Shown piece by piece: positions 5,705-10,691 of a DNA stretch of 47,975 bases (its first letter is position 1; the number at the start of each line of letters is the position of its first letter). Origin of the DNA: Defluviitaleaceae bacterium. GTDB lineage: Bacteria; Bacillota; Clostridia; Lachnospirales; WQUN01. The notes beneath the pieces are model-generated. The model searched no databases, was not told the origin of the DNA, and saw only the letters and a list, made by a program, of their open reading frames with translations. The translations under genes were made by a program, and so were the position numbers. The stretch spans positions 1-47,975 of the forward strand of contig WQVX01000003.1 of assembly GCA_009785615.1 (NCBI GenBank). Reading direction: 5' to 3'.

Positions 5705-7099
5705 ATGCACAAGGTTAACTTAGGAAAAGGGATAAAAAATGTTCACTTTATAGGAATAGGTGGTATAAGTATGAGCGGCCTGGCAGAAATCCTTCATCGT
5801 GAAGGATATACTGTATCCGGCTCTGACTGGATGGCTTCTGATATTACAAAACACCTGTCCGGTTTAGGAATAAAATTTAAGTTGGGAAATGATGCTGCCC
5901 ATATCACAGAGGATATTGATTTAGTTATACACACTGCTGCTGTTAAACCTGATAATCCGGAATTATCTGTCTCTCGCAGTAAAAATATTCCTATCATAGA
6001 TAGAGCTAAACTTTTAGGCATCATTATGGAAGGTTATAAGTATTCTGTGGCGGTAGCAGGAGTGCATGGTAAAACTACAACTACTGCAATTATCTCAGAG
6101 GTGTTAATGGCAGCACAGCTAGATCCAACTATATCTATTGGAGGATTTATCGAATCTCTTGGCAGTAATTTTAGAATAGGCAATTCTCCTTATTTAGTAT
6201 TGGAAGCATGTGAGTACTTCGACAGCTTTTTGCAGTTTTATCCCAATATAGGTGTTATACTAAACATTGACAGTGATCATTTGGATTACTTTGGTTCATT
6301 AGAACGACTGATGGATTCTTTTCATCGTTATGCTAAAAATATTCCGAAAGAAGGCACTTTAGTCATTCACAAAAATACTGAATTTTTTGATGATGTTACT
6401 TCCGGCTTGGAATGTAATATTATAACCTATGGCACATCTTCTGCTCACTTTTGGGCTAAAGATATTCGATATGACAGCCATGGGATGCCAACTTTTTATA
6501 TTATGAATGGTACTGAGCCTTTGGCAGAGGTAACATTACAACTACGAGGCACACATAACATAGATAATTCTTTAGCAGCAATTGCTGTGGCATCAGCTTT
6601 GAATATTCCTATCAACTCCATAATTAAAGGACTTTCCCAAGCTACCGGTGCCAAAAGACGTTTTGAGCACAAAGGAACATTTAAAGGCATGACTGTAGTT
6701 GATGATTATGCCCACCATCCTACTGAGATAAAGGCCAGCTTATCCGCTGCGGCAAACGGTACTTATAAACGAATAATATGTGCTTTTCAGTCGCACACTT
6801 ACACTCGCACCCAAAACTTACTTGCAGAGTTTGCGGCATCTTTCGAGTATAGTGATATTGTACTGATATTGCCCATCTATGCTGCAAGAGAAGTTTCCAC
6901 AGGCCCTTATCCTAACTATTTAGCTGAACTTTTAACAGATGGAATCCAAAAACATGGCAAAACAGCGCGTTTTATGGAGAATTTTGAAGCCGCTGCTCAA
7001 TGGCTGGAAGATAATGCCCAACCTGATGACCTGTTGATAACTATGGGAGCCGGAGATATTCATGTTTTGGGTGAAAACTTGATATCTACGGGACTTTAA
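5705..7099 (+). CDS. murC: UDP-N-acetylmuramate--L-alanine ligase
   Basis: Adds L-alanine to UDP-MurNAc using ATP, the first amino-acid step of peptidoglycan stem-peptide synthesis in the cytoplasm. The 464 aa show the three Mur-ligase domains: an N-terminal Rossmann domain (HFIGIGGISMSGLAEIL, 14-30), the central ATPase with P-loop GVHGKTTTT (119-127), and the C-terminal domain with VVDDYAHHPTEI, AFQSHTYTRT and MGAGDI. RBS AAAGGAG precedes the ATG by about six bases. It has its own promoter (5640-5668) and terminator (7192-7240), so it is monocistronic here and not in a dcw cluster. Confidence 0.97.
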   Translation: MHKVNLGKGIKNVHFIGIGGISMSGLAEILHREGYTVSGSDWMASDITKHLSGLGIKFKLGNDAAHITEDIDLVIHTAAVKPDNPELSVSRSKNIPIIDRAKLLGIIMEGYKYSVAVAGVHGKTTTTAIISEVLMAAQLDPTISIGGFIESLGSNFRIGNSPYLVLEACEYFDSFLQFYPNIGVILNIDSDHLDYFGSLERLMDSFHRYAKNIPKEGTLVIHKNTEFFDDVTSGLECNIITYGTSSAHFWAKDIRYDSHGMPTFYIMNGTEPLAEVTLQLRGTHNIDNSLAAIAVASALNIPINSIIKGLSQATGAKRRFEHKGTFKGMTVVDDYAHHPTEIKASLSAAANGTYKRIICAFQSHTYTRTQNLLAEFAASFEYSDIVLILPIYAAREVSTGPYPNYLAELLTDGIQKHGKTARFMENFEAAAQWLEDNAQPDDLLITMGAGDIHVLGENLISTGL

Positions 7100-7430
7100 C
7101 GGATATAACATTAAGTTTTTATTGAGTTATCCACATTATCCACAGGGATAACTTCATTTATTCTTAAAAAATTTTACAAGAGGTTTTAAAAGTCTACAAT
7201 TACGTTAGTTCTCCACAATCCCGTAATTGTAGGCTTTTTTAAGATTTTTACTTCTAAGGCTGTGGATAACTAATTTGAGATTGCCCAAAAATCAAGGAAT
7301 TCGTCAAAATTTTTTCCACAGAGTTATGCACATTTTTCAAAAAAGCTGTTGATAAATTTTCGCTACACAAGTTCTCTGGAATATTGTAGACTAGTGTCAG
7401 TAACTACAATTTAGAAAAGAGGAAATCCTT
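7100..7430. other. Intergenic region with seven DnaA-box-like sites
   Basis: A 331-bp spacer between murC and the dnaD-like gene. TTATCCACA occurs as an exact head-to-tail pair at 7127-7135 and 7136-7144 and again on the minus strand at 7261-7269. TTATGCACA is at 7324-7332. One-mismatch sites are TTCTCCACA (7209-7217), TTTTCCACA (7312-7320) and, on the minus strand, TTATCAACA (7347-7355). The sites surround the murC terminator and lie next to A/T-rich stretches (about 7150-7190). A TACAAT -10-like hexamer is at 7405-7410. The sites are seen directly. Whether they serve replication initiation, DnaA titration or DnaA control of dnaD-dnaI is inference. Confidence 0.8.
7192..7240 (+). terminator. 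Intrinsic terminator after murC
   Basis: CTACAATTACG (7194-7204) pairs perfectly with CGTAATTGTAG (7222-7232), extended by G-C and T-G pairs, and is followed by TTTTTT. The 17-nt loop contains a DnaA-box-like TTCTCCACA. Confidence 0.88.
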
Positions 7431-8534
7431 ATGCGACCCATTACTTTTAAAATATCATATGAAGCATCTATATCCTTGCCATTGATTTTTATTGACAGGT
7501 ATATGTCGTCTTGCACACCGGTATATGCTTTAATTTACATATATGGTTTGCGTCATACTTTAGCTAATGGACAGGGCTTATCTACCCAGGCTATTAGCGA
7601 GACTTTTCATATTTTAGAGACAGATGTGCTTAATGCTTGGAAGTATTGGGATGACCAAGGATTAATTAAAATGGATACTCAAAATGAAGGGATGTCCATT
7701 GAATTTTTACCTTTTCCTGAACAACAGCAGCAACCTGTTAAAAAGCCATTATCCAAACCTGTTGACATAATGCATCCGCAAGAAAAGCCATTGTCTAATG
7801 CTGTTGATGTAATTCAGCCACCAACTTTCAATCTATCGCTTAGGCCACAATACACGCCGGAAGAATTAGCTTTTTATAAAAATCAAAGTGAAGATGTAGC
7901 AAACCTTTATAAGCATGGAGAGCAGACTTTAGCTAAAATGCTCGCGTATCATGATATGAACATACTCTTTGGTTTTTATGATTGGCTTCGCTTACCAATG
8001 GATGTTATATTTTATATGATGAGTTATTGTGCAGAAAATGGTCATCGTGATCTTAGATATATAGAAAAGGTCGCTTTGGATTGGGCAGAACGTAGCATAA
8101 ACACTGTAGAAACTGCCAAGGATTATGTCCAAACCTTTGATAAGGACTTCCGCGAGATAATGAGAGCATTAGGGAACCCGTCAGCTTTTCCATCTCCAAC
8201 ACAGCGTAAATTTATGCAAAAATGGCTTGAAGAAATGGAAATTCCTCTGTGCTTAATACTGGAAGCTTGTGATCGATCGGCTGTTCAGCTAGGAAAACCT
8301 AATCTAAAATATGTACATAGTATTGTTGAAGCTTGGTACAATAAAGGAATTAAAACTTTGGAAGAGGTAGATGTTGCTGAGGCAGATTGGCATAAAGAAG
8401 AATCAGATAAAAAACGGACAGGCAGGCCGGTAAAACGTCGTAATCGTTTTGCTAACTTTAAACCACGTGAAAAAGATTTTGCGCAATTAGAAAAAATGGA
8501 GAGAGAATACCTGATGAAGAGTATTGAAGGATGA
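7431..8534 (+). CDS. DnaD-like replication initiation protein with two DnaB_2 domains
   Basis: A primosome protein of the DnaD/DnaB type that in Firmicutes bridges DnaA at the origin and helicase loading. The 367 aa comprise an N-terminal winged-helix region (about 20-90), a linker, and two tandem DDBH2 (DnaB_2) domains: about 155-233 (FYDWLRLPMDVIFYMMSYC, YIEKVALDWAERSINTVE) and about 238-313 (KWLEEMEIPLCLILEAC, YVHSIVEAWYNKGIKTLEE). The linker holds a duplicated segment, KPLSKPVD (107-112 area) and KPLSNAVD (119-126). The C-terminus is basic. RBS AAGAGGA precedes the ATG. It overlaps the dnaI-like gene by 4 bp (ATGA), so the two are translationally coupled, and it lies directly behind the DnaA-box cluster. 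Confidence 0.9.
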   Translation: MRPITFKISYEASISLPLIFIDRYMSSCTPVYALIYIYGLRHTLANGQGLSTQAISETFHILETDVLNAWKYWDDQGLIKMDTQNEGMSIEFLPFPEQQQQPVKKPLSKPVDIMHPQEKPLSNAVDVIQPPTFNLSLRPQYTPEELAFYKNQSEDVANLYKHGEQTLAKMLAYHDMNILFGFYDWLRLPMDVIFYMMSYCAENGHRDLRYIEKVALDWAERSINTVETAKDYVQTFDKDFREIMRALGNPSAFPSPTQRKFMQKWLEEMEIPLCLILEACDRSAVQLGKPNLKYVHSIVEAWYNKGIKTLEEVDVAEADWHKEESDKKRTGRPVKRRNRFANFKPREKDFAQLEKMEREYLMKSIEG

Positions 8535-9541
8535 GTTATAAAACGGTTTTTAAAGATATTATGCGGGAGTACGAATCCGACAGAGATCGTGCTGCCAACC
8601 TTTTAAAAGAACGAAGAGAGGAAGTATATCGCTATCTTCCCGGAGTAAAAGAAATAGATGAAGAACTTTCTCAGATAGGTATCAGTGTAGCAAAACGACT
8701 TTTAAAAGAGGGTGCTGATACCAAATCACTTATTGAAAATATGAAAAAGCATTCTGAAAAACTGAAAGCAGAAAAGGAACATCTTCTTTCCGAAATTGGT
8801 GTGTCTAATAATTATTTTAACGCCATTTATCGTTGTAATTTATGTGAAGATACCGGGTATCTGACTAAAGAATTATCTCGCACAAATAGGTGCCAATGTC
8901 TTAAACGACGGTTAATAGATAAATATTACGATTTATCAAGTATCAGAGGACTTCTTGAGGCAGAAAATTTTGATACATTTGATATACGTTACTATAGTGA
9001 TGAGATACTTCCTTCTGAAGGAATATCCCCCAAAAACAATATGGAACTTATCTTTAAAAATGCTATGAAGTTTGTGGATGATTTTGGACAAACATTCCAA
9101 AATCTTCTGTTTTACGGAGAGACCGGAATGGGCAAAACATTCTTATGTAATTGTATCGCAAAAGATTTGTTGGACAGAGGGCATACAGTACTATATGTAA
9201 CAGCCCCAAGGATTTTTAAGCTGGTAGAGGACTATCGCTTTAACCGTGATGAAATGGAAGATCCTAATTATGCAATAGATGCCGTAACAGATGTTGACCT
9301 GCTTATATTAGATGACTTGGGAGCTGAATTTAGTACACTTGTCACCAATAGTACTTTATTTGATATAATTAACCAAAGATTACTTGCCAAACTACCCACG
9401 GTTATTTCAACCAACCTTCAGCTTGCAGAGCTTGAGACACACTATACAGAGCGGATAATTTCGCGCTTTTTTGGCAATTACAAAATATCCAAGTTTTTTG
9501 GCGATGATATTAGGCTTAAAAAGAAATATAAAAATGCCTAG
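8531..9541 (+). CDS. dnaI: DnaI/DnaC-like helicase loader ATPase
   Basis: AAA+ ATPase expected to load the replicative helicase. The 336 aa have a coiled N-terminal part, a Cys cluster (Cys102, Cys105, Cys121, Cys123) resembling the zinc-binding module of DnaI, then the ATPase core with Walker A GETGMGKT (196-203) and Walker B LLILDDLG (257-264). Sensor-like STN and the arginine-rich RIISRFFG follow. The symbol follows the Bacillus name; DnaC is used in many clostridial annotations. Its ATG is inside the dnaD-like stop (ATGA). The pair forms a primosome operon. Confidence 0.92.
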   Translation: MSYKTVFKDIMREYESDRDRAANLLKERREEVYRYLPGVKEIDEELSQIGISVAKRLLKEGADTKSLIENMKKHSEKLKAEKEHLLSEIGVSNNYFNAIYRCNLCEDTGYLTKELSRTNRCQCLKRRLIDKYYDLSSIRGLLEAENFDTFDIRYYSDEILPSEGISPKNNMELIFKNAMKFVDDFGQTFQNLLFYGETGMGKTFLCNCIAKDLLDRGHTVLYVTAPRIFKLVEDYRFNRDEMEDPNYAIDAVTDVDLLILDDLGAEFSTLVTNSTLFDIINQRLLAKLPTVISTNLQLAELETHYTERIISRFFGNYKISKFFGDDIRLKKKYKNA

Positions 9542-9554
9542 GGAGGGATGTTAT

Positions 9555-10691
9555 ATGTTTAAGAGGCTAGTTTTTATACTATTAACATGTACATTGTTAG
9601 TAGTGCCTGCATGGGCGCAAGACACCCAAGATGAATATGAAGAATACCCGGATGAGTATTACGAGTATCAGAGTGACGAAGTTCAAAGTCCTCATAGAAT
9701 ACCATACCTTGTAGCAGTCCGTGGAGCTACCCGCAATGTAGCTTCTGTTACAGCTTTTGATAACATGATTACAGATTTACAAGAGATGCGTACAAGTTTG
9801 CAAAATATGCGTGAGCACATGCGCAGGTCAGGTACTCACAGCCGAGATGAAATACTACGGATAGACCGTCAAATTGGAGACATAAGTGCTAATATAAATA
9901 CCATGCGTGTGTCCCAAGAAATGTCTCGTATTGCAACAGAATTTTCTATGCGCAATACTATGACAACTATTGCTAATACCCATTTAGATATTCAATTGCT
10001 GGAAGCTACTTTGGAGCAAGACCAAACTAATTTGCATATAGCACAATTGCGCTTTGACGCCGGTTTAATCAGTGAAAGTGATCTGCGAGCTATTGAGCTA
10101 AATGTTCAGCAAAGAGAATCCGGCTTGGCAACTTTGCAAGTATCTTTAGCAACAGAGCAACAAAATTTAAATCGAATTTTACAGAGACCATTAACCGGTT
10201 ATTACTATGTGTATCATAATAGGGAATTAATTGACCTTCCTGCTAATATTGATGATCACATCCGTAATACAGTTAGACAACAGCCAAACGTTCGTCAAAG
10301 GGATATTTCCAGAGGGCGAGCAAGAGCTGTTCTCAATAGCTATGGAGCACCATTCGGATCTCCGGAACGCCAAGAGCAAGAGCGCAACTACAATCAAGCA
10401 ACACGAGAATATAATGAGGCAAGGCGTAACGTAGAAACTGCATTGCGCAATCAATACAATAGCCTAACTATGCTGTTACAACAAAATGAATCTTTAGCAA
10501 TAGATTTGCAACGTGCAAAAGAACGTATTGAAACCATAGAACTTAACTATCAAGCAGGTCTTGCTACTCCTTTTGATATAGAAGCTGCCGGACTTGGAAT
10601 TTTAAGTGCAGAAATCGCAATTGAACGGAATTTAAATACTTTTTGGAATGCACAATTTATGTTTGAATACCCATTTTTACTTGGGAATTAG
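9555..10691 (+). CDS. Secreted TolC-family-like coiled-coil protein
   Basis: A 378-aa exported protein. Residues 1-21 form a signal peptide (cleavage likely after AWA, 19-21), followed by a very acidic, tyrosine-rich linker (DEYEEYPDEYYEYQSDE). The rest is long amphipathic helices with two repeats of the outer-membrane-efflux type: LRFDAGLISESDLRAIELN and ELNYQAGLATPFDIEAAGLG, each followed by a coiled coil. That pattern is the mark of TolC-like proteins. In a single-membrane organism it cannot be an outer-membrane channel, so the role (wall or envelope scaffold) is unknown. I chose ATG 9555 because GGGAGGG lies seven bases upstream and the signal peptide starts there; a longer in-frame opening at 9471 lies inside dnaI. 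It follows dnaI by 13 bp and may be co-transcribed. Confidence 0.75.
   Translation: MFKRLVFILLTCTLLVVPAWAQDTQDEYEEYPDEYYEYQSDEVQSPHRIPYLVAVRGATRNVASVTAFDNMITDLQEMRTSLQNMREHMRRSGTHSRDEILRIDRQIGDISANINTMRVSQEMSRIATEFSMRNTMTTIANTHLDIQLLEATLEQDQTNLHIAQLRFDAGLISESDLRAIELNVQQRESGLATLQVSLATEQQNLNRILQRPLTGYYYVYHNRELIDLPANIDDHIRNTVRQQPNVRQRDISRGRARAVLNSYGAPFGSPERQEQERNYNQATREYNEARRNVETALRNQYNSLTMLLQQNESLAIDLQRAKERIETIELNYQAGLATPFDIEAAGLGILSAEIAIERNLNTFWNAQFMFEYPFLLGN

Follow-up and report, generated by a model that had tools for sequence, protein, structure and literature searches.

A conserved DnaA-box cluster between murC and dnaD, a candidate DnaA-binding locus outside oriC in Lachnospirales-like bacteria

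To our knowledge, DnaA-box clusters outside oriC have been studied closely in only a handful of model bacteria, and what they do in Firmicutes is under debate. Bacillus subtilis has six such clusters, whose joint deletion leads to early initiation of replication (PMC5295017), and it lacks datA and DARS loci (PMC13220808). Some of its clusters are associated with promoters, and one lies between the converging genes gcp and ydiF; B. subtilis DnaA activates sda directly and seems to repress other operons (PMC4447404). Here we describe a cluster of DnaA boxes in the spacer between murC and dnaD, for which we found no published description in the open-access literature.

The window (the whole stretch analyzed, 47,975 bp) is the entire contig C3 of a 3.29-Mb draft assembly of 240 contigs. 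On its forward strand, murC (UDP-N-acetylmuramate--L-alanine ligase; 5705 to 7099; NCBIfam TIGR01082, 451 bits) is followed by dnaD (DnaD-domain primosomal protein; 7431 to 8534; TIGR01446 and PF07261) and by a gene for a dnaI-like helicase loader ATPase (8531 to 9541; NF005304, 370 bits; PF01695). The box-bearing spacer is bounded by the murC stop at 7099 and the dnaD ATG at 7431. The open reading frame after dnaI (9471 to 10691) matches an outer-membrane efflux (TolC-like) domain, PF02321, a surprising match if the host is a Firmicute with a single membrane. Named relatives were collected with the DnaD alignment as the query. They are mostly termite-gut metagenome-assembled genomes labelled Defluviitaleaceae and, further out, Petrocella, Anaerotignum, Vallitaleaceae, and Lachnospiraceae, and from these names we infer that the order under comparison is Lachnospirales or close to it.

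DnaA boxes in the murC-dnaD spacer and their conservation

A preliminary description of this DNA had counted seven DnaA boxes, four exact and three with one mismatch, between 7127 and 7355. All seven were found there: exact TTATNCACA sites at 7127(+), 7136(+), 7261(-), and 7324(+) and one-mismatch sites at 7209(+), 7312(+), and 7347(-). The cluster is organized in two modules, one at the stop codon of murC and the other downstream, whose boxes either abut or are spaced by 12 bp. Module A (7127 to 7144, forward strand) starts 27 bp past the murC stop and consists of two abutting head-to-tail exact boxes, TTATCCACA-TTATCCACA, the sole such pair in the 3.29-Mb host draft genome. Module B (7312 to 7355, forward strand) combines TTTTCCACA (7312) and TTATGCACA (7324), which are 12 bp apart, with an inverted TTATCAACA (7347) located 35 bp from the first. 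Between the two modules lies an inverted exact box (7261 to 7269, reverse strand), and many relatives in the window's family have an inverted box at a similar place. A search of the host for direct pairs of exact boxes with gaps of 0 to 30 bp gave only one further pair, on contig C58 (L006:3532-3561), where two boxes 21 bp apart lie between an unnamed open reading frame and an AAA ATPase gene.

Could this arrangement be an artifact of chance or base composition? The box count of the window as a whole is compatible with such an artifact: five exact boxes are present versus 2.75 expected, and at least five were reached in 14 of 100 shuffles, so that the window is not enriched. The unusual part is the clustering, with four exact boxes within 206 bp. 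At most two exact boxes per 230 bp turned up in six simulated genomes of 3.29 Mb (window composition; Markov order 1 and 3), which bears out the high density claimed in the preliminary description. Likewise, the 76 distinct murC 3' ends carried 2.20 exact boxes per 310 bp versus 0.03 in dinucleotide shuffles. The exact abutting 18-mer was present in 52 of 118 genomes from the order, in which the abutting pair matched about 80 times, whereas a reversed control pattern matched once; in a comparison by hand, 32 of the roughly 80 matches (in 23 genomes) were located at most 700 bp upstream of dnaD. Box positions, moreover, are kept in many families. We consider an artifact of chance or composition to be refuted by this conservation and give it practically no credence.

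An alignment of the spacers of 20 relatives revealed conserved islands that correspond to the boxes, the terminator, and the promoter-like block described below. Module A is conserved at the murC stop in relatives, where it frequently begins directly after the stop codon, and outside the window's family modules A and B are mostly 140 to 167 bp apart. Direct spacings within the cluster are nearly all 9, 12, or 21 bp (62, 49, and 30 counts, respectively), in the pattern TTATCCACA-TTATCCACA-N3-TTATNNACA; oriC loci of the same organisms favor the 12-bp spacing. These data, as raw counts over loci and genomes with phylogeny uncorrected, show that the cluster is strongly conserved across this Lachnospirales-like order.

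Another conserved site, TTATCAACA(-) about 61 bp ahead of the murC stop, was left out of account, as it coincides with the codons for a conserved LLITMG motif. The abutting-box pattern was also observed about 100 to 480 bp upstream of hpf/raiA, which encodes a ribosome hibernation factor, in three other families of the order (L250, L251, L253, and L254, from genomes G156, G107, G142, and G056; in G156 the other neighbor is secA). These boxes are possibly a second conserved DnaA cluster; the pattern is absent from the hpf locus of the host (L257).

The replication origin in the host and its relatives

Is the murC-dnaD spacer an ectopic, second, or bipartite origin of replication, as the preliminary description had suggested? 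Its box density and tandem pairs are comparable with those of oriC, and the dnaD-dnaI gene context also speaks for an origin. However, when we looked for dnaA-dnaN and for other box clusters in the genome, as had been proposed, we found dnaA on contig C59, apart from the window's contig, in the standard order rnpA-rpmH-dnaA-dnaN and with oriC at L005:5860-7760. This oriC has boxes of its own, five exact ones upstream of dnaA and more in the dnaA-dnaN spacer, and the latter spacer carries TTACTACTACTACTACTACTA, a seven-unit DnaA-trio run at about L005:7690-7712.

A strict CTA-type scan for DnaA-trios found none in the window's cluster, and among the clusters of 76 relatives it detected not a single run of three CTA. 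The scan used the strict CTA-type rule, which is narrower than the published permissive one, and roughly one in three dnaA loci fail it too. Because several dnaA loci also fail, the absence of trios counts against an origin in a supportive rather than conclusive manner.

GC skew in the window itself tracks gene strand and is uninformative on the origin. The skew check that had been proposed was run in a complete, one-contig relative (G057), in which the skew is negative to the left of dnaA and positive to the right, with the change of sign at dnaA (about 1.058 Mb). No skew inversion was seen at the G057 cluster (1.012 Mb), which lies 45 kb from dnaA inside the negative arm. In complete relatives with the cluster, it is located about 1 to 27% of the genome length from dnaA, usually in the origin-proximal part. 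The 45 kb in G057 and a distance of 18 kb in Petroclostridium X23, a genome without the cluster, had suggested tight linkage to oriC; this idea was dropped, as the distance in other complete genomes is about 0.2 to 1.3 Mb. A separation of 0.8 to 1.3 Mb, as seen in some of them, argues further against an origin at murC-dnaD. With a separate, trio-bearing oriC in the host, a cluster devoid of trios by the strict scan, and a relative whose skew flips at dnaA, the proposal of an ectopic or bipartite origin does not hold up, and we regard it as very improbable.

In genome G137 of family f17, about 14 boxes, abutting pairs included, were observed within 270 bp directly upstream of dnaA (L256:703-965).

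Transcription signals and genes flanking the cluster

Folding predicted a strong hairpin after module A (stem 7192 to 7204 and 7222 to 7234; z = -5.9), a probable intrinsic terminator of murC (7192 to 7240, forward strand) with a 13-bp stem, a 17-nt loop, and T6. The one-mismatch box at 7209 to 7217 sits inside its loop, as the preliminary description had pointed out, and DnaA binding there might modulate termination of murC transcription, as it had gone on to propose. In the alignment of 20 relatives, however, conservation extends to the hairpin and the flanking boxes but not to the loop box. For this reason, we find no support for an effect of DnaA on murC termination, and we hold such an effect to be highly unlikely.

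Conservation among the same 20 relatives points to a promoter-like block for dnaD with a weak -35 (7364 to 7392, forward strand). Its family consensus is T.T.CAagcc....aaaaT.gg.TAttaT, and the window has TAGACT at 7387 to 7392. A consensus promoter scan did not call this block; the consensus promoter and terminator scans were uninformative, and the terminator came from folding. In the region that corresponds to 7240 to 7320, between the inverted box and module B, many family members have a conserved TTGACA about 26 nt before GATAAAATC, a spacing too long for a sigma-70 promoter.

We then asked whether the cluster is tied to murC or to dnaD. The comparison covered the named dnaD loci with enough upstream sequence, 41 preceded by murC and 31 without it. 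At least three boxes (one mismatch or fewer) were present at 40 of the 41 murC-adjacent loci, which settles in favor of conservation the question that the preliminary description had raised about relatives. Only 3 of the 31 loci without murC had at least three boxes, and 0 of 31 had two exact boxes. The boxes do not travel with dnaD when it moves: every moved dnaD was without a box pair.

In genus g16 (G028, G015, and G025), the cluster is independent of dnaD: dnaD is elsewhere and without boxes, and murC is still followed by the cluster, in which module A and the +35 geometry of the inverted box are unchanged. The MurC proteins of this genus are only about 65% identical, and the spacers are otherwise diverged. 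In G028 and G025 the cluster serves no promoter, because the next gene, for tRNA-Glu, converges on murC. Two exact boxes are kept behind murC in G046, where a translation-factor-like gene comes next, and in G084 the cluster is beside murC though the dnaD start lies several hundred bases further on. In families f17, f15, and f19, murC and dnaD are no longer adjacent and the cluster has disappeared as well. None of 26 murC loci from outside the order had dnaD or a box pair.

Within the window's family, but not elsewhere in the order, the boxes keep a constant distance to the dnaD start. In this family, 16 of 19 loci have module B between -113 and -135 relative to the start of dnaD, mostly at -117 to -122 (about 119 bp). 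In other families, its distance to murC is steady (quartiles 139 to 164 bp), whereas its distance to dnaD is not (quartiles -266 to -160). Some murC stops were mis-set in these measurements, so that the spread of murC distances in the window's family is overstated; the dnaD distances are unaffected. Judged from neighborhoods and distances, these data show that the cluster is anchored to the 3' end of murC and that module B has, in the window's family, a second fixed point in the dnaD start.

Possible function and comparison with known systems

The order-wide conservation of a cluster that is not an origin makes a DnaA sink, DnaA control of the helicase-loading genes, or both, probable, and titration and control of dnaD-dnaI each appear viable as its meaning. 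The reading that we favor, with some reservation, is that the murC-dnaD spacer is an extra-oriC DnaA-box cluster of the B. subtilis kind, acting by sequestration, and that in the window's family it probably also controls dnaD-dnaI. DnaA would bind cooperatively at the two modules, one with tandem boxes at the 3' end of murC and the other with tandem boxes and an inverted box in front of dnaD. Several DnaA molecules would be kept from oriC by the locus, which would be doubled when the fork passes, as proposed for the B. subtilis clusters. In the window's family, the same complex would probably tune dnaD-dnaI transcription to the level of DnaA, because module B there keeps a constant position immediately before the dnaD promoter. 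That DnaA binds, that it is sequestered, and that it controls transcription, in whichever direction, are predictions from sequence. The position in complete chromosomes, usually origin-proximal but without tight linkage to oriC, is a point against this reading.

Alternatively, the cluster might be primarily an operator through which DnaA activates or represses dnaD-dnaI, such that loader supply follows DnaA activity and titration is incidental. We judge this unlikely but a serious contender. An operator would predict what is seen in the window's family, a module B fixed about 119 bp ahead of dnaD and adjoined by the conserved promoter-like block, and B. subtilis offers precedents in sda and in the operons that DnaA appears to repress (PMC4447404). 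The cluster is lost where dnaD and murC are separated, except in g16 and partly in G046; its loss together with the adjacency in f17, f15, and f19 also fits a mainly dnaD-linked function, and the g16 copies, whose second modules are partly decayed, could be slowly eroding remnants. However, an operator does not readily explain a cluster that persists without dnaD in three species of one genus, in two of them between converging genes, nor the absence of box pairs at every moved dnaD, nor a module B that outside the window's family holds its distance to murC and not to dnaD. Overall, the data fit a DnaA-binding locus that is independent of dnaD and has, in addition, a family-specific connection with the dnaD-dnaI promoter.

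Tentatively, and as a rather doubtful extension of the sequestration reading, the two-module array of abutting boxes may be a DnaA nucleoprotein element in its own right that the order inherited from its ancestor: a dedicated controller of DnaA level outside oriC that in some families is wired to the helicase-loader operon. If so, it would be a Firmicutes counterpart in role to datA/DARS, and in some families one locus would couple DnaA availability to helicase-loader supply. DnaD counteracts cooperative DnaA binding in B. subtilis, and control of dnaD by DnaA would for that reason, speculatively, complete a feedback circuit. A cluster that is kept across the order at a fixed position beside helicase-loading genes, and that follows a clear spacing rule, predicts DnaA sites in many gut Lachnospirales, and the natural separations of cluster and dnaD make a DnaA sink versus a dnaD operator directly testable.

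How does the locus compare with known systems? With oriC and its basal unwinding system of DnaA boxes and DnaA-trios, it shares tandem boxes, some of them 12 bp apart; unlike oriC, it has no DnaA-trios, no dnaA or dnaN, and no skew inversion (as read in G057). Escherichia coli datA and DARS are likewise non-coding DnaA-box loci outside oriC; they act on DnaA through its nucleotide state with IHF/Fis, and the cluster is compared with them by its boxes alone. Similar to DnaA-regulated promoters (sda and dnaA autoregulation), it places boxes close upstream of the promoter of a replication-linked gene; unlike them, it persists without a downstream promoter in part of genus g16. Most similar are the B. 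subtilis clusters at gcp-ydiF, ywlC, ywcI-vpr, yydA, sda-yqeG, and trmE: like these, the murC-dnaD cluster has several consensus boxes, is intergenic, and lies away from oriC and dnaA-dnaN. It occupies another locus, as murC, dnaD, dnaI, and dnaB are absent among the strong B. subtilis regions compared (PMC4447404). Unlike the B. subtilis clusters, it follows a strict grammar of abutting 9-bp and 12-bp spacings in two modules, at one locus kept through the order.
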